34,081 nucleotides of DNA from Candidatus Wolframiiraptor allenii (GTDB lineage: Archaea > Thermoproteota > Nitrososphaeria_A > Caldarchaeales > Wolframiiraptoraceae), in NCBI GenBank assembly GCA_023539495.1, contig JAKCEV010000007.1:1-34081 (forward strand), written 5' to 3'. Made by a program: the position numbers and the translations under genes. Below are positions 20,160 to 30,869 of the stretch, one piece after another. Positions within the stretch are counted from its first letter, which is position 1. Each line of letters opens with the position of its first letter. The notes below the pieces were generated by a model. That model was not told where the DNA came from. It saw only the letters and a list, made by a program, of their open reading frames with translations, and made no database searches.

Positions 20160-21038
20160 CTACTCCTTTCCACCGAGCTCCTCATACAGCTTCTTTCTAT
20201 TTGCCTCTAGGAGGTTCTCGTTAAACCCCATGTAGGCGGCTGCCGTGCGTACTCTCACGCCGCATGTATCCGCCCAATCCATCACGGGTCTCACCCTATC
20301 CCTCCACTCCAAGTCCCGAAGAAGATGATGATCTAAGATCATTTCCTGGAGGAATCCTCCGCCGATGATCTCAGACATGTTTCTTATCGATTCCCTGAAA
20401 ACATTATCCCCCAGCCTGTATCCGAGCATGTATGTCATGGGCCCATCGCAGACCAGTATATCAGGCCTATTGTCCAAGATGAACTTCACCTGATCTCTGG
20501 AGACGAAGCCCTCCACATCTGACGAGTGTATGAGCTTCTCGCCGCGATCTACTATGAGGACCTCGACCACGTAGCCAAGCCTTGGATCATCTCCATGCTC
20601 AACCGGGCTGGAGAACCTGACCCTGCATCCACCGATCCTCAGCTCCCGGGAGTCCGCGACCTCAACCCTCGCATCAAGCCTCCTCAACCTCTCAAGGAAG
20701 ATTCCCGCCCTAGTCCTCTGGCTGAAGTTTATCATGTGCTCCGGATCCTTCAGGAGAATCCTCTTGCCTCTCAGCCATCCAATATCCTCCCCCGGCCTTG
20801 GGAAATGATCATAATGATAATGCGTGATTATTATCAGGTCCGCCTCGGATGCCTCACGCTCTATGGCCCGCTTATGTTCTCTCAGCCTCTCAAGCTCTAT
20901 TGGATGCGGCTTCAGTCCATATCTCCATGGCCCGAGAGCGGCTCCCGGATCAATAATGATCCGCGCGTCATCAGTCTCTACCAGCGTGCACATGCTCCGG
21001 GTCCCCATGCTATCGAATGCAAGAAACTTCACCCTCAT
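20160..21038 (-). CDS. UPF0282 metallo-beta-lactamase-fold hydrolase (COG2248-like)
   Basis: A 292-residue MBL-fold protein. The N-terminus FLAFDSMGTRSMCTLVETDDARIIIDPGAALGP and the phrase RYGLKPHPIELERL are characteristic of the archaeal UPF0282 family. The metal motif is THYHYDHF (HxHxDH), with further ligands likely in PVEHGDD, HSSDVEG and LDHHLLRD. No substrate is established for this family to my knowledge. The ATG overlaps the stop of the upstream membrane/zinc-ribbon gene (ATGA), so the two are translationally coupled. Confidence 0.9.
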   Translation of the reverse strand: MRVKFLAFDSMGTRSMCTLVETDDARIIIDPGAALGPWRYGLKPHPIELERLREHKRAIEREASEADLIIITHYHYDHFPRPGEDIGWLRGKRILLKDPEHMINFSQRTRAGIFLERLRRLDARVEVADSRELRIGGCRVRFSSPVEHGDDPRLGYVVEVLIVDRGEKLIHSSDVEGFVSRDQVKFILDNRPDILVCDGPMTYMLGYRLGDNVFRESIRNMSEIIGGGFLQEMILDHHLLRDLEWRDRVRPVMDWADTCGVRVRTAAAYMGFNENLLEANRKKLYEELGGKE

Positions 21039-21580: not shown

Positions 21581-21721
21581 ATGGTTGATGCACTTCCCAC
21601 GCGGCACAGGCTTCCGAGCCACAATCCTCCAGTAAGATCCATGAACCATCATTGTCAGACTCATCGATTATCATCCCTCGGGCAATTCATGTTTCTCATA
21701 CTCCGGCAATGCGGATCAAAG

Positions 21722-21729
21722 TTTTTATC
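21722..21729 (+). promoter_or_regulatory. TATA-like box of the GlcNAc-1-P transferase-like gene
   Basis: tttttatc lies 26-33 bases before the ATG at 21755. This spacing supports that ATG over the ORF-track start at 21581. Confidence 0.45.
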
Positions 21730-21754
21730 CCAAGCTTTGCTCCGGGGTGCGAGG

Positions 21755-22720
21755 ATGCTGGAAGCAATAGTCTCCGGCCTGCTTACATTTTTTCTGGCGC
21801 CAGCGGCGATTATACTGGGGAGGCGGCTTAGGGTCGTGGGCGTGGACGTCCATAAGCCTTGGAGGCCCATCGTCCCTAAGACCGGCGGCCTCGCGATAAT
21901 CCTCGGCGCGACCGCCGGCATGATCCTCGGAGCACATGCAAGCGGGTTCCAGCTCTTCATACCGGTAATCCTCTCCTGCCTAGTCGCCGCCTCCATAGGC
22001 CTTGTAGAGGATCTACGGGAGGAGATAGATCCAAGGCTCAAGCCCCTCCTGCTCATCTTCGCATCCCTACCTGTTCTTGTCTTGGGAGCATATTCTCCTA
22101 GGCCGCTCATCCCATTCCTCGGGAAGACGAGGCTCTACAGGGTGTATCCCGTGCTAGTCATGGCATCATATCCGGTGATCTGCAACGCCGTCAATAGCCT
22201 CGATGTCCTTAATGGGTCGGCGCTCCTAACATCCATTCCCTTCCTCATAATGAGCTCTGTGATCTTCTATATGCGGGGTGATCTCCAGCTCCTCATCCTG
22301 AGCCTGATATTCCTCGCGGCCGCCGTGGCCATGCTTCCCTACAACATGTATCCGGCTAGGACGTTCATAGGCAACTCCGGGAGCCTCTTCATCGGGGCAG
22401 GGATAACTTCCATAGCCATAATGGGAAGCATTGAGGTGGCGGCGATAATAGCCCTCATGCCCCAGATAATGAACGAGATGTATGTGTTATTCTCCATTCG
22501 CGGGCTCAAATCGGCCAAGAATATCGGCAGGAGACCCGTCGTGGTTGAGAATGGCATGTTGGCGGCCTCCGAGGACCCGGATGCGCCGATAACGCTCCTG
22601 AGGATGATCTGCGCCGGCATTAAGGTTGATGAGAGAAGGGCTGTCTATGCCATGGCCCTGATCTCCGCCTTCGCCGCGTTCCTCGGATTCCTCACTCACA
22701 TCCTGCTATTGGGGGGCTGA
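21755..22720 (+). CDS. Glycosyltransferase family 4 enzyme (dolichyl-P GlcNAc-1-P transferase/MraY-like)
   Basis: A 321-residue polytopic enzyme of the polyprenyl-phosphate N-acetylhexosamine-1-phosphate transferase superfamily. Signatures: VDVHKP and PKTGGLAIIL after the first helix, IGLVEDLREEIDPRLKPLL (DDxxD region, with Glu at the first position), CNAVNSLDVLNG (NxxNxxDGxxG-like), and GNSGSLFIGA (usually GDTGS). About ten membrane helices. It should transfer a sugar-1-phosphate from a UDP-sugar to a dolichol-type lipid, the first step of a lipid-linked glycan for N-glycosylation or similar. The 58 residues before ATG 21755 lack any transmembrane or family character, so they were dropped. 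The small membrane protein at 22727 follows 6 bases later. Confidence 0.88.
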   Translation: MLEAIVSGLLTFFLAPAAIILGRRLRVVGVDVHKPWRPIVPKTGGLAIILGATAGMILGAHASGFQLFIPVILSCLVAASIGLVEDLREEIDPRLKPLLLIFASLPVLVLGAYSPRPLIPFLGKTRLYRVYPVLVMASYPVICNAVNSLDVLNGSALLTSIPFLIMSSVIFYMRGDLQLLILSLIFLAAAVAMLPYNMYPARTFIGNSGSLFIGAGITSIAIMGSIEVAAIIALMPQIMNEMYVLFSIRGLKSAKNIGRRPVVVENGMLAASEDPDAPITLLRMICAGIKVDERRAVYAMALISAFAAFLGFLTHILLLGG

Positions 22721-22726
22721 GAGAGA

Positions 22727-22984
22727 ATGGGCTTGGCGAGAAACATCCTCATGATAATTATTCTACTGACCCTGGTTTGGGCAATATTCCTCTTTGCAAG
22801 CTACGTGATCACGGCTACAGTGCTCTATACGCTAGAGCTCCCCGGAGACACGATTACAAGCATCGCAAGGGTTGTGCTTGGAATCATAATCGCCGGAGCA
22901 TGGATCCTAGGATGGTATAAGCTAACCAAGCTCTGGCTATACAGGGTCCTACTAGCCGGAAGGCGGGGAAACCACTCCAATTAA
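22727..22984 (+). CDS. Small two-helix membrane protein
   Basis: An 85-residue protein with two membrane helices (ILMIIILLTLVWAIFLFASYVI and SIARVVLGIIIAGAWILGW) and a basic C-terminal tail. It begins 6 bases after the glycosyltransferase stop, preceded by a purine-rich stretch (gggggctgagagag), so the two form an operon. No family recognised; a partner or regulator of the transferase is possible. Confidence 0.7.
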   Translation: MGLARNILMIIILLTLVWAIFLFASYVITATVLYTLELPGDTITSIARVVLGIIIAGAWILGWYKLTKLWLYRVLLAGRRGNHSN

Positions 22985-23403: not shown

Positions 23404-24378
23404 TTGAAGACCATAATTATTCTCGTGGCAATCCTCTCAGCCCTCCTACCGCTCGCCTCGCAACAGGCCGCGATGCTCATCACGATAGATCGGGGCGGGG
23501 TCGCAGAGGCCCATCTGAGCCTGAGCGCCGTCGAGGGCTTGAATGAGGTTAGGCTGCCTGCTGAGCCTATCCCAGAAACCATCTGGATCCGGGTGAACGG
23601 GGAGTATGTGGCCCCGATCTACGAGAATGGCGTCCTGTACTTCTTCTCGCGGGCCCCGGGAGACGCTGAGATAGACTACATGATCAACATCTCCGCGAGG
23701 AATGATATTCTCAGCTTCGAGGTTAATTGGGGGAACCTCACGAGGCTAAGGATACCCCCACAGGTGATCCTGCTAACGGTCCCGAGGAACATAACTGGGA
23801 TGGAGTATGTTGAGGGCGATCTCGTGATAGAGTTCTATGGCCCGGAGAGGATAGAGTATGCCGTGAGGACATTCCAGCCAACAACCACGGCAACCAAGAC
23901 AGGGGCGGCCACCATTACCAAGGAATCCATTACAACTATAACGTCCCTAGGGGCCTCCACGGCGGCCTCGACAACCACTATGGGAACAGGGATCATTGGG
24001 GGTCCCACCACGGCCACAATGGCCCAGGCCACGGGCACCTATACCATTACTGGGCCTCCTGGGATAAGTCAGGTCATGATTATTGTGGGTTTAGCTGCTC
24101 TCATGGCGATCGCGGTGGCCGCGGCCGTCGCCTATTCAAGATCAAGGAGTAGGGGCCTGCCTCACGAGGATCATTCCCTGACGGGGCTCGATAGGATGAT
24201 CTTGGAGGCCATCGGGAATGCTGGCGGCTCCATCCTCCAAGGGGAGCTCCAGGCCTCACTTAACCTCCCGAAGACCACGTTATGGAGGCGTGTCAGGAGG
24301 CTTGAGAAGCTCGGATACATACAGATCGTGAAGGAAGGAGCCTTCAACAGGCTGATACTGCTCAAGAAGCCCGACTAA
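23404..24378 (+). CDS. Membrane-anchored winged-helix regulator with extracellular domain
   Basis: A 324-residue protein with an unusual topology: signal peptide (1-20), an extracellular beta-rich domain (about 25-155), a Thr/Ser/Gly-rich stalk (about 157-215), one membrane helix (about 221-244, QVMIIVGLAALMAIAVAAAVAY), a basic stop-transfer (SRSRSR), then a cytoplasmic winged helix (about 258-322: LDRMILEAIGNAGGSILQGELQASLNLPKTTLWRRVRRLEKLGYI). It reads as a one-component transmembrane regulator that senses something outside and binds DNA from the membrane, a layout known among archaeal predicted regulators. The start is TTG at 23404 with GGGGGAGGA just upstream. A repeat cluster and the secreted coiled-coil gene follow. 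Confidence 0.85.
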   Translation: MKTIIILVAILSALLPLASQQAAMLITIDRGGVAEAHLSLSAVEGLNEVRLPAEPIPETIWIRVNGEYVAPIYENGVLYFFSRAPGDAEIDYMINISARNDILSFEVNWGNLTRLRIPPQVILLTVPRNITGMEYVEGDLVIEFYGPERIEYAVRTFQPTTTATKTGAATITKESITTITSLGASTAASTTTMGTGIIGGPTTATMAQATGTYTITGPPGISQVMIIVGLAALMAIAVAAAVAYSRSRSRGLPHEDHSLTGLDRMILEAIGNAGGSILQGELQASLNLPKTTLWRRVRRLEKLGYIQIVKEGAFNRLILLKKPD

Positions 24379-24402
24379 AATGGCCTCAAGGTTTTCGGCC
24401 AA

Positions 24403-24448
24403 GTTCCTAGCAATGGAACCATTTGGAACCGGGATTCCCAAAATTCCC
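24403..24448 (+). promoter_or_regulatory. Candidate operator: GGAACC/GTTCC and ATTCCC repeats
   Basis: In the 110 bases between two genes there is an inverted pair GTTCC-N7-GGAAC (24403-24419), a direct repeat GGAACC at 24415 and 24425 (10-base period, one helical turn), and ATTCCC at 24434 and 24443. The cluster ends just before a TATA-like stretch (taaaattatga, about 24449-24459) that is well placed for the gene starting at 24493. A binding site for the adjacent winged-helix regulator is an inference. Confidence 0.4.
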
Positions 24449-24492
24449 TAAAATTATGAAACCACCCTGCAATATTCGGTGATCATGCGGTG

Positions 24493-25632
24493 ATGAAAGC
24501 GAAGTTGAGCTTCCAGGCAATTGCTGTCGCGCTTCTCCTCCTGCTTGCAGTAGTTCCCATTATGGCTGCATATGGCCAGGCGAACCTCGACCCTTCCAGC
24601 AAGGAGCTTGAGAAGCTGAGGCTGCGGGCCCAAGTCCTGCAAGGCACCCTGAATAAAGCATTGGATACGCCATGTATCCCGGACTCGTTGAGGGGTGAGG
24701 TTAAGGCGCTGGCCTCCATGAACACCTCAACACTATCCGAGGATGATCTAAGAAAGTTCATCGCAGAGGCCGAAGCCCTTCTAACAGAAGTCAGAGGATA
24801 CCTGTCGAGGTGTAATGTGATACTCCATCAGGAGGATGTCGCCTTAAGCCTCCTCAAGAGGGCTGAGGAGAGGTTGAACACGACGCTGGCAAGGGTGAAC
24901 ATGACGCGGGATGAGGCTGAAAGGGTCAAGGAGCTTATCAAGGAGAGGACTAGAGGAAATATGACCGTCAGAGATGTCGCGCAGCTCATGAAGAAGGTTA
25001 GAGAGATGCTGAGACATAGGTGGGCCGCGAGGCTCTCCGACGAGATGATAAATTATACCGAGAACATGAGAGTATCCGGCGCCATATTCGGCCTAATGAA
25101 TGCCCTGAATGCCTCGAGCAAGGTCCTAGCGGTTCTTGAGAGGGTTAGGGAGAGGCTCATTGAGGTTAATGCATCGGAGAGGGCTGTCGAGGCGATAGAG
25201 CGTAATATAGAGAGGATAGCGGCGGCGAGGGAGGTCTTGAGGCAGCTGATCGAGAGGATGGCCGCCGGACACCCGCCTGGAAGGATCACGCCACCCGGCC
25301 CGCCTGGAAATGTCACACCCGGAAACATCACACGCGAGAGGTCTAGGGAGCTGGAGTCAGCCGCGAGGGAGAGGGCCATTAAGATGATCGACGAGTGCAT
25401 TGACAGGCTCCAGGAGCTCAGGGACAAGGCCCTCAAGATGAACCTAACGGATCTTGCGCGTGAAATAAATGCAACAATAACAAGCCTGAGGGTGCTCAGG
25501 GATAGGGTAGCATCCGGTGAGCTAAACCTGAAGGAGCTGACGGATACCATAGCATCCGCCAAAGGAGTGATCAAGCATGCCGAGGAGAGCATTGAGAAGG
25601 TGGCTATACCTCATAAGGGCGGGAGAAAGTGA
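24493..25632 (+). CDS. Secreted coiled-coil protein rich in N-glycosylation sequons
   Basis: A 379-residue protein with an N-terminal signal peptide (FQAIAVALLLLLAVVPIMAAYGQA) and long helical, coiled-coil regions on both sides of a Gly/Pro linker (PPGRITPPGPPGNVTPGN). At least eight N-x-S/T sites (NTT, NMT, NYT, NAS, NVT, NIT, NLT, NAT) suggest glycosylation outside the cell. Two cysteines near the start of the mature protein (TPCIPD and SRCNV) may pair. No C-terminal anchor is seen, so it is secreted or held by partners. ATG 24493 is preferred over GTG 24490; GGTGATC lies upstream. Function unknown; a surface-layer-associated or stalk protein is one possibility, regulated by its neighbour. 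Confidence 0.8.
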   Translation: MKAKLSFQAIAVALLLLLAVVPIMAAYGQANLDPSSKELEKLRLRAQVLQGTLNKALDTPCIPDSLRGEVKALASMNTSTLSEDDLRKFIAEAEALLTEVRGYLSRCNVILHQEDVALSLLKRAEERLNTTLARVNMTRDEAERVKELIKERTRGNMTVRDVAQLMKKVREMLRHRWAARLSDEMINYTENMRVSGAIFGLMNALNASSKVLAVLERVRERLIEVNASERAVEAIERNIERIAAAREVLRQLIERMAAGHPPGRITPPGPPGNVTPGNITRERSRELESAARERAIKMIDECIDRLQELRDKALKMNLTDLAREINATITSLRVLRDRVASGELNLKELTDTIASAKGVIKHAEESIEKVAIPHKGGRK

Positions 25633-29068: not shown

Positions 29069-30505
29069 TCATGTTACTGGTATTAGGTCTGGTATTGGTG
29101 ATGTTTTGCCTGGTTTTAGCTGTATTGCGTATAGTGGTGTTCTGGGTTTTATTCCGTAGAGTAGGAGGCACCCATGTTCTCGTGTTATCTTTAGGTGCAT
29201 GTCTGATATTGGGGCGAGCCTCTCAACAATCCACGGCATAATTGGTTTAACGAGCCAAAACATTAAAGAATGATATTCTCTTATTATATCCTGAGCTATG
29301 GCTAGCTGTTTTAATCCCTCCTCACCAGCTGTCCGAACGATTCTATCAACCCCTATATTCGCGATTACCGGGTTACCTGTTTTCTCGACAATTTCTATAC
29401 CAAATTCTATGATCTGCCTACTTGTATCCTCAACGTTCCTAAGATCAACTTCTATTATGTTTCTCTCTTTCTTAATTAGCGCACCCTTCTCATAAAATAT
29501 GTGAAAACGTTCTAGAAATAGTTGCTCGCTTATACCATAGTAGCTGTTCATTTCCTTCACTAGGTCCGGGCTGATCCCTCCGCTTGGAATTGTTAAATCA
29601 TGTCTTCCCTTGAGGACGAAGCTTGCTATCGCAGGAGCAATTATCACGTTATATTCCCAGGGGGTAAGCCTAGGGTCGATTTCGAAGAGAACCGTTGATC
29701 CACGTGGATATCCCCCTATCTCGCGGTCTAGGTCCGGTATCCCGGTCGTGTAGGCTCCGGGCGGATCAGGCGGCAGCCAGGTCTCGGGAGCCGCCTGCCA
29801 TGCAGGCTTCTCGAGCCTAGGAATCTTCACCGGGGATATCACTGTGAGGCCTTCATGGATTGTGCAGACCAGCCGTGGGAATATTATGTCTGCTCCTCTT
29901 AGTTTCAGGATCTCTAGGCGGCGTAGCGGCCTTCCCTCGAAATATCCTCTCTCAAGATGTATTACTGCGTCTGCGACGTATTCCTCGAAGTCGAGTGGCC
30001 CTGTTAATGGGTCACCTTCTTTGATGAGTATCGTGGTGCATTTGAGGTTCTCGACTATCTTTGAGAGGAGTGTTTGTAGGAGTATTCGTGTCTCGAGGGG
30101 GTCCTTGAATTGTTGTTTTAATGCTGTTATGGAGTCTATTATGAGCCTCTTGGCGCCCATCTTCTCAATTTGTTCGAGGATCATGTCTATGGCCGTCGCG
30201 GCCCCAGCCTCCATCGTGACCGGCATCCAGATGTGTTTGAATAATCCCTTCTCCTCGAGCTTTTCAAAGTCCATTCCAAGCCTCTTGGCGAGCTGGAGGA
30301 ATCTTTCTCTGCTCTCGTAGACTGAAATGTATATGCCCGGCTCGCCAGCCTCCAATGCTCCGCGATAGATGAATGTCATCCCCATTATCGTCTTGCCCGA
30401 CCCGGGCTTACCCGAGACCAGTATGAGCCCGCCTCTAGGAAATCCTGGAATAGCATCGTCAAGACCCGGTATACATGTTTTGATGAAGATCTCGTTATCC
30501 TTCAT
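29069..30505 (-). CDS. KaiC-like ATPase with degenerate second domain
   Basis: A 478-residue two-domain RecA/KaiC-family protein. Domain 1 (about 8-235) is intact: TCIPGLDDAIPGFPRGGLILVSGKPGSGKT Walker A, YISVYESRERF, RLIIDSITALKQQF Walker B, and the C-terminal LRRLEILKLRGAD. Domain 2 (about 252-470) restarts with TTGIPDLDREIGGYPRGSTVLFEI, but where the P-loop should be there is DPRLTPWEYN with no GK[T/S], so it cannot bind ATP in the usual way. Likely a signalling or scaffold ATPase rather than a clock. ATG start at 30505 with GGTGATC just upstream; the NitrOD5-like gene ends 7 bases before. Confidence 0.9.
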   Translation of the reverse strand: MKDNEIFIKTCIPGLDDAIPGFPRGGLILVSGKPGSGKTIMGMTFIYRGALEAGEPGIYISVYESRERFLQLAKRLGMDFEKLEEKGLFKHIWMPVTMEAGAATAIDMILEQIEKMGAKRLIIDSITALKQQFKDPLETRILLQTLLSKIVENLKCTTILIKEGDPLTGPLDFEEYVADAVIHLERGYFEGRPLRRLEILKLRGADIIFPRLVCTIHEGLTVISPVKIPRLEKPAWQAAPETWLPPDPPGAYTTGIPDLDREIGGYPRGSTVLFEIDPRLTPWEYNVIIAPAIASFVLKGRHDLTIPSGGISPDLVKEMNSYYGISEQLFLERFHIFYEKGALIKKERNIIEVDLRNVEDTSRQIIEFGIEIVEKTGNPVIANIGVDRIVRTAGEEGLKQLAIAQDIIREYHSLMFWLVKPIMPWIVERLAPISDMHLKITREHGCLLLYGIKPRTPLYAIQLKPGKTSPIPDLIPVT

Positions 30506-30512
30506 GTGTTGA

Positions 30513-30869
30513 TCACCTTCGATAGGGTGGCTTGATAGCCCTCCTCATCCTCTCCGCGGCCTCCTCACCACCCTTCTCCAAGAGTTCTATAAACTTGTCG
30601 GGGTCTAGGCCCTCCATGTAGCCGTTTTCATTCAGCCATCGGGCGACAAGCCTCATAAGCATCTCGGCGCCACTTCCAAGAAGCTCCCTCAAAACCTTAT
30701 AAAACCTGCCAGGATCCTCGTAAAAGACCTCATACATGTCCCTGCCGAGCCTTCTCTCAACATGAAACCTAAGAGCCATAACGCTAGTAGGGCCTAGGAG
30801 GGACTCAAAGGCCCTAGAAATGAAAAGTTTAAATACTTCCCCCCCAAGGCCCTTCCCACCAGCTTGCAT
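30513..30869 (-). CDS. Small protein with NitrOD5-like domain, coupled to KaiC-like gene
   Basis: A 118-residue helical protein. The segment LLGPTSVMALRFHVERRLGRDMYEVFYEDPGRFYKVLRELLGSGAEMLMRL resembles the NitrOD5 signalling-output domain of archaea (G-x-AxxxLxxHL ... dpxxfxxxLxxifG-GAexll). It lies 7 bases upstream of the KaiC-like gene in the same operon, a typical place for an output or adaptor protein. The start is uncertain: ATG 30869 follows GAGGAGGT too closely, and a TATA-like TATTTAAA lies inside the first 15 codons, so a later start is possible. Family call from memory of the pattern. Confidence 0.6.
   Translation of the reverse strand: MQAGGKGLGGEVFKLFISRAFESLLGPTSVMALRFHVERRLGRDMYEVFYEDPGRFYKVLRELLGSGAEMLMRLVARWLNENGYMEGLDPDKFIELLEKGGEEAAERMRRAIKPPYRR

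Follow-up and report, generated by a model that had tools for sequence, protein, structure and literature searches.

CadC, ToxR and TcpP are bacterial regulators whose N-terminal domain is a winged helix of the OmpR type. Little is known of how archaea monitor the condition of their surface, and few archaeal membrane-bound regulators have a known operator, ArnR being one. ArnR and ArnR1 of Sulfolobus acidocaldarius are membrane-bound one-component regulators of surface structures; ArnR has an N-terminal HTH, HAMP-like and sensor domains and two C-terminal transmembrane helices, and its box reads TCGAC-N5-GTCGA (PMC6396743). A survey of transmembrane transcription regulators (TTRs) lists the Thermoproteota as a TTR-enriched phylum (Demey et al. 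2023, PMC10269533). In Pyrococcus furiosus, TFB-RF1 is described as an activator that recruits TFB at weak-BRE promoters (PMC5937170).

Here we analysed a 34,081-nucleotide stretch of DNA from Candidatus Wolframiiraptor (Caldarchaeales), referred to as the window, in which two co-directional genes encode a membrane regulator and a secreted partner. As expected of a TTR, the regulator has a predicted DNA-binding domain (HTH_24, MarR_2) and at least one transmembrane region.

Anatomy of the regulator

The regulator is a protein of 324 aa encoded on the + strand at 23404-24378, in an ORF with a TTG start and GGAGG upstream. It begins with a signal peptide or hydrophobic segment (approximately aa 1-19, 23404-23460; mean hydropathy over the 19 aa of 2.24) that is followed by a predicted extracellular beta-sandwich domain (aa 23-154, 23470-23865; AlphaFold2 pLDDT of about 95) with three sequons at N95, N111 and N129. 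Next comes a disordered Thr-rich stalk (aa 155-222, 23866-24069), with 23 Thr among the 70 residues of aa 153-222 and a pLDDT below 50 in the AlphaFold2 model over aa 159-222, and then a single transmembrane helix (core aa 224-242, 24073-24129; hydropathy 2.84; modelled helix 222-250). Directly after this helix stands the basic sequence YSRSRSR, which by the positive-inside rule would place the C-terminal winged helix in the cytoplasm. This last domain (aa 258-320, 24175-24363, recognition region LPKTTLWRRVRRLEKLGYI) matches the Pfam models HTH_24 (E 1.7e-9, 37.5 bits, cut-off 21.9) and MarR_2 (E 3e-7, 30.9 bits, cut-off 27), and its residues P289, K290, T291, T292 and R295 are invariant in 18 distant relatives. 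A sequence search of the PDB matched Lrp/AsnC/MarR-type and Z-DNA-type winged helices only. The layout of ectodomain, Thr-rich stalk, one membrane helix and winged helix, which the original prediction had proposed from the sequence of this region, is therefore borne out by the ORF, Pfam, hydropathy and AlphaFold2, and its proposal that no phosphorelay is involved agrees with Pfam matches that include neither a kinase nor a receiver domain.

The ectodomain has no Pfam or NCBIfam name. Its best Foldseek matches (E 1.7e-5) are to the beta-rich part of M1 aminopeptidases, a likeness of fold only, and we rejected the idea that the ectodomain is an enzyme.

Just upstream of the pair, a gene for a glycosyl transferase of family 4 (21581-22720, + strand), a family that starts N-glycan assembly, and a gene for a small membrane protein (22727-22984, + strand) were seen beside the window copy only. 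A metallo-beta-lactamase-fold protein is encoded on the - strand (20160-21038) some 2.4 kb ahead of the regulator gene, and an apparent orthologue adjoins the regulator in two Pyrobaculum-like loci (L056:4143-5063, L057:4483-5403). Elsewhere in the window (29069-30869, - strand), a KaiC-like ATPase gene has a neighbour with a weak match to NitrOD5, the Nitrosopumilus output domain.

A sequon-rich secreted partner

The partner (380 aa, 24490-25632, + strand, starting at GTG 24490 or ATG 24493) has a predicted signal peptide (approximately aa 1-36, 24490-24597; hydropathy 2.65 at aa 10-28), and no second clear transmembrane segment was found beyond it. The original prediction had claimed at least eight glycosylation sequons; we counted 11, against 1.76 expected from shuffles, and 11 of the 17 Asn of the mature part sit in sequons. 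Over the whole partner set we observed 518 sequons against 114 expected, a ratio inflated by a set partly chosen on sequons, while control proteins carry 406 against 401. These figures rule out sequon richness as mere composition, and from sequence we regard the partner as probably N-glycosylated.

In the AlphaFold2 model, the partner forms helical hairpins with several sequons at the hairpin turns. The N227-A-S turn between modelled helices 160-225 and 230-259 is well defined (pLDDT 85-89); the global arrangement is unreliable because the overall pTM is only 0.30. The protein is thus predicted to be helical, as had been claimed, though several helical hairpins describe it better than the label of coiled coil. 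Neither Pfam nor NCBIfam yielded a family above cut-off, and no PDB fold matched the model with E <0.001 (Foldseek best E 0.09). Kinship with Spy/CpxP-type periplasmic helical proteins was considered and gained neither a family match (Pfam, NCBIfam) nor a PDB fold match.

Regulator and partner genes are linked

Within the genus, regulator orthologues with an adjoining partner were found in 8/8 genomes examined (in G006 the contig end falls within the partner gene), and the intergenic box array described below accompanies the pair in all eight. The genome of the window holds a second pair on another contig (G000:C60, L047:2749-3978), with regulators 70% and partners 63% identical between the two copies. 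Since this second pair is complete with its own array, the unit has been duplicated or moved whole. The C60 pair lies in a pyrG / HtpX-like context common to several other genus members, and of the two copies that in the window is probably the supernumerary one.

Near-identical tracts between the window and C60 copies (partner aa 203-257; regulator PRNITGMEYVEGDLVIEFYGPERIEYAVR) suggest gene conversion between them. The genus also has a third regulator type (G000:C48, L065:2533-4051; G003:C16, L173; G014:C16, L148), encoded beside a convergent membrane-anchored helical partner and a MacB/FtsX-like ABC exporter operon; at this C48-type locus the partner is present and no GTTYC array was found upstream of its gene.

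Beyond the genus, the regulator profile (A3) matched in 235 of 299 Thermoproteota genomes and 98 of 131 genera, and a scan of genome contigs with two peptide patterns, extended beyond the Thermoproteota, gave matches in that phylum exclusively. We examined about 80 loci around regulators, mostly one per genus and mostly from MAGs, which comprise 83 unique regulators with genes called mechanically as ORFs. A strict partner was defined by a signal-like N-terminus, at most one further transmembrane segment, at least three sequons and a helix-favouring composition, and controls were 377 genes from 19 regions of 20 kb in genomes of the same phylum. Such a partner is adjacent to 50 of the 83 unique regulators and to 0/377 control genes, under a definition that, like the pentamer set below, was fixed after part of the loci had been seen. 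With a looser definition (secreted neighbour, at least two sequons) the counts are 66/83 for regulators and 11/370 for controls. Besides divergent and convergent arrangements, the genes occur in tandem with either of them first, and this variability indicates that the linkage reflects more than operon inheritance. The claim that the two genes form one unit accordingly holds throughout the genus and, in several orders, phylum-wide.

The partners are related in sequence as well. A 55-residue profile built from genus partners alone, corresponding to aa 203-257 of the window protein (25096-25260, + strand) with the N227-A-S sequon in the turn, matches partners in other families, including Pyrobaculum-like L056 and L057 and Geothermarchaeota. 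This helical-hairpin motif is common to partners of about ten lineages and matched 0 control proteins; its core, L..[VI]...L...NAS..A[VI]..[VI]...I, describes a helix-NAS-helix hairpin. Partners at the phylum loci frequently reach great length, with a maximum of 1062 aa.

At two other Pyrobaculum-like loci (L058:4554-5195, L059:3929-4800) we observed ectodomain-transmembrane genes without an in-frame winged helix, or with the winged helix in another frame; these may be decoy receptors, split genes or sequencing errors.

Putative operator boxes at partner promoters

Between the two genes of the window lies a putative operator array (24403-24448, + strand) consisting of GTTCC (24403-24407), GGAACC (24415-24420), GGAACC (24425-24430), ATTCC (24434-24438) and ATTCCC (24443-24448). 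GGAACC repeats with a 10-base period had been predicted here, and the two copies are indeed exactly 10 bp apart; the predicted motif was correct for this pair and too short in extent, omitting the upstream GTTCC and the two downstream ATTCC boxes. Adjoining the last box we read from the sequence a TATA-like core promoter element (CTAAAATTA, 24448-24456, + strand) with no A-rich BRE. The exact GGAACC 10-bp repeat arose in 0/5000 dinucleotide shuffles; some 6-mer was repeated at 10 bp in 134/5000 shuffles of the intergenic region, and for this reason the window repeat alone is only moderately significant.

What makes the array convincing is its conservation among the genus loci. The pattern GTTCCTAG..GRAACC-N4-GRAACC-GGGATTCC-N4-ATTCCCTAAWATC is alignable in nine of them, being weaker in G006 and G007, so that the repeats proved conserved when relatives were searched. 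Conservation centres on the boxes and the TATA-like element, and CCTAAWAT is kept in most loci. Across the genus genomes, the core pattern with 0-1 mismatch is confined to this promoter, and matches elsewhere with two mismatches are about as frequent as those of a reversed-pattern control.

Outside the genus, GTTCC/GTTTC boxes repeated at approximately one helical turn were first noticed in partner promoters, which we analysed in windows from -170 to +60 because the called start lies too far upstream in several genes. When all 512 5-mers were counted with strands merged, GTTTC and GTTCC showed the strongest enrichment in 47 partner relative to 370 control promoters, with uncorrected Fisher values of 7e-12 and 7e-11, respectively. 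At least three boxes within 45 bp occur in 29/47 partner promoters (62%) and in 1/370 controls (0.3%). As the loci are related by descent and phylogenetically non-independent, the per-lineage counts are the safer figures: in 15 of 28 lineages at least one member has at least three boxes within 45 bp, and in 21/28 at least two boxes. Same-strand spacings of GTTYC/GRAAC peak at 10-11 and 21-22 bp, and the boxes cluster just upstream of the TATA region, abutting a YCCYTAA-type sequence without an A-rich BRE in core promoters predicted from sequence. Boxes are absent in some lineages that have both regulator and partner (f7, f50 and the C48-type locus).

The boxes are specific to the partner promoter. 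We rejected them as a mark of secreted genes in general, since at least three boxes were found at 0/30 control secreted genes and boxes were found at only 2/37 non-adjacent secreted genes within the same loci. In tandem loci, the regulators' own promoters have at least two boxes in 2/30 cases, by which autoregulation through the same boxes was rejected for such loci and the partner is indicated as the target.

A scan of 151 genomes with the 28-base operator pattern GAAACGCNGCGTTTCANNGTNTYCCTTA, allowing up to three mismatches, gave 16 sites, against 0 with the reversed control; 14 of the 16 are at partner genes, counting four sites (G127, G078, G070, G135:C5) from loci used to derive the pattern. 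Ten of the 12 sites outside the derivation set are at partner genes, with the partner assigned by ORF reading in five (L206, L207, L208, L209, L139), by position beside a regulator in four (G092, G084, G021, G015), and in L203 by a short ORF resembling a partner remnant. L206 and L207 are new pairs revealed by the scan. The other two sites precede the gene of a secreted DUF4382 protein (L204) and an ABC transporter operon (L205), and together they suggest a small regulon in some species. At the latter (L205:2020-5434, G135:C11) the operator stands before genes for a transporter ATPase and for a large surface protein of CARDB/DUF11 type, a possible second target.

Discussion

We consider it likely that these elements constitute a dedicated transmembrane one-component regulator-operator-target module. 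The regulator would be a membrane-anchored one-component transcription factor whose beta-sandwich ectodomain samples the cell surface and is joined to the winged helix through one transmembrane helix and a Thr stalk that is flexible and probably glycosylated; tethering and the long stalk would let the ectodomain respond on the S-layer side. From co-occurrence only, we infer that the winged helix binds the GTTYC/GRAAC boxes, which stand one or two helical turns apart and abut the partner core promoter; two or more subunits would most likely occupy boxes on one face of the DNA helix. Conservation of the operator lends indirect support to the binding of target DNA from the membrane that is expected of a TTR. 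The presumed BRE position carries YCC, not an A-rich element, and the bound regulator would most likely help TBP/TFB load on a weak promoter, a mode of activation for which TFB-RF1 is a precedent (PMC5937170). On the position of the boxes alone the regulator is most likely an activator: they stand immediately ahead of the core promoter, as do the activating ArnR boxes (PMC6396743). The output would be a secreted, N-glycosylated helical-hairpin protein that acts at the surface, perhaps in a chaperone-like or structural role. The data establish the anatomy, the pairing of the genes, the conservation of the operator and its specificity for the partner promoter; the surface signal, the glycosylation and a possible action of the partner back on the ectodomain are steps that we infer.

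The same module might instead operate with the regulator as a repressor that blocks TFB or polymerase at the boxes until it is freed by a signal at the surface. The last GTTCC box of several lineages continues directly into the TATA-like sequence (GTTCCTTAA in L167 and L168; GTTCCTTATA in L161), and occupancy there could exclude TFB. However, most boxes are upstream of the TATA-like element and not over it or the start site, and the archaeal membrane regulators ArnR and ArnR1 activate from upstream boxes (PMC6396743), and repression is in our opinion unlikely. A different role for the partner, compatible with the activator module, is that of an accessory co-sensor: by binding the ectodomain it would shield or adjust the regulator, much as TcpH serves TcpP and ToxS serves ToxR (PMC11323476, PMC7496328). 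The very tight linkage in all gene orders, an operator found almost exclusively at the partner promoter and only two other putative target promoters fit this role; yet TcpH is a single-pass membrane protein, whereas the partner lacks a clear second transmembrane segment and in many loci is very long, and we hold the co-sensor role to be possible, if somewhat doubtful.

A reading in which another, cytoplasmic factor of envelope genes occupies the boxes, the regulator being a co-inherited neighbour with other targets, seems improbable. Boxes without an adjacent regulator do occur, at the DUF4382 gene and the ABC transporter operon, but they are rare at other secreted genes, close pattern matches in the genus are confined to the space between the two genes, and the winged helix hardly varies in its recognition region among lineages that have the box in common. 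Finally, a low-complexity helical protein and a chance repeat beside an unrelated regulator could be imagined from the frequency of 10-bp 6-mer repeats in intergenic shuffles; conservation, linkage and enrichment in independent lineages contradict such an artefact, which we give practically no credence. Returning to the activator module, the original reading of the region, direct surface sensing coupled to expression of a surface protein, is as a whole partly supported.

More speculatively, the pair might form a phylum-wide surface-homeostasis circuit, a two-gene closed loop across the membrane in which the partner is both output and ectodomain ligand; we advance this only tentatively and think it rather less probable than otherwise. 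If true, it would be the equivalent in archaea of the envelope-stress pathways of bacteria, achieved with neither kinases nor proteases nor sigma factors. The module itself supplies regulator, operator and target together, for a regulator family present in 98/131 sampled Thermoproteota genera, and it makes membrane-bound gene control tractable as a two-gene, one-promoter question. It points to a widespread family of secreted proteins for which Pfam and NCBIfam lack a model, and regulons can be mapped through GTTYC boxes spaced by one or two helical turns. Across the phylum, it looks like direct surface sensing and response in heat-loving archaea.

Comparison with known systems

In the open-licence papers searched, we found no prior description of the regulator-partner pair. 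Transmembrane transcription regulators are already known, and what appears to be new is the matched set of membrane regulator, secreted partner and repeat operator. TTRs likewise combine a DNA-binding domain and a transmembrane helix in one polypeptide with no phosphorelay, and the consulted portion of the survey gives counts and domain classes with no mention of this ectodomain family, a secreted partner or an operator (PMC10269533). The Pfam entry DUF7343 (PF24034) covers the winged helix only; a relationship to it is likely because a Thermofilum relative passes the cut-off (30.4 vs 27.6 bits), while the window protein itself stays below it (14.7 vs 27.6 bits).

The likeness to TFB-RF1 concerns the proposed mechanism only; the abstract on that factor describes neither membrane attachment nor pairing with a secreted protein (PMC5937170). 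CadC, ToxR and TcpP resemble the window regulator in joining membrane-embedded sensing to DNA binding, some of them with a cognate protein such as ToxS or TcpH (PMC5430869, PMC7496328, PMC11323476). In contrast to them, the window regulator has a C-terminal, HTH_24/MarR-like winged helix, no Trans_reg_C match was found for it in Pfam, and its partner is a long secreted helical protein. ArnR and ArnR1 share with it an archaeal origin, membrane attachment and paired boxes upstream of the core promoter (PMC6396743). The window regulator, which has no HAMP match and no ArnR architecture, reverses their order, with ectodomain, one transmembrane helix and C-terminal winged helix, and the fully read intergenic region holds, in place of TCGAC-N5-GTCGA, which is absent from it, the GTTCC/GGAACC array of the GTTYC/GRAAC box.
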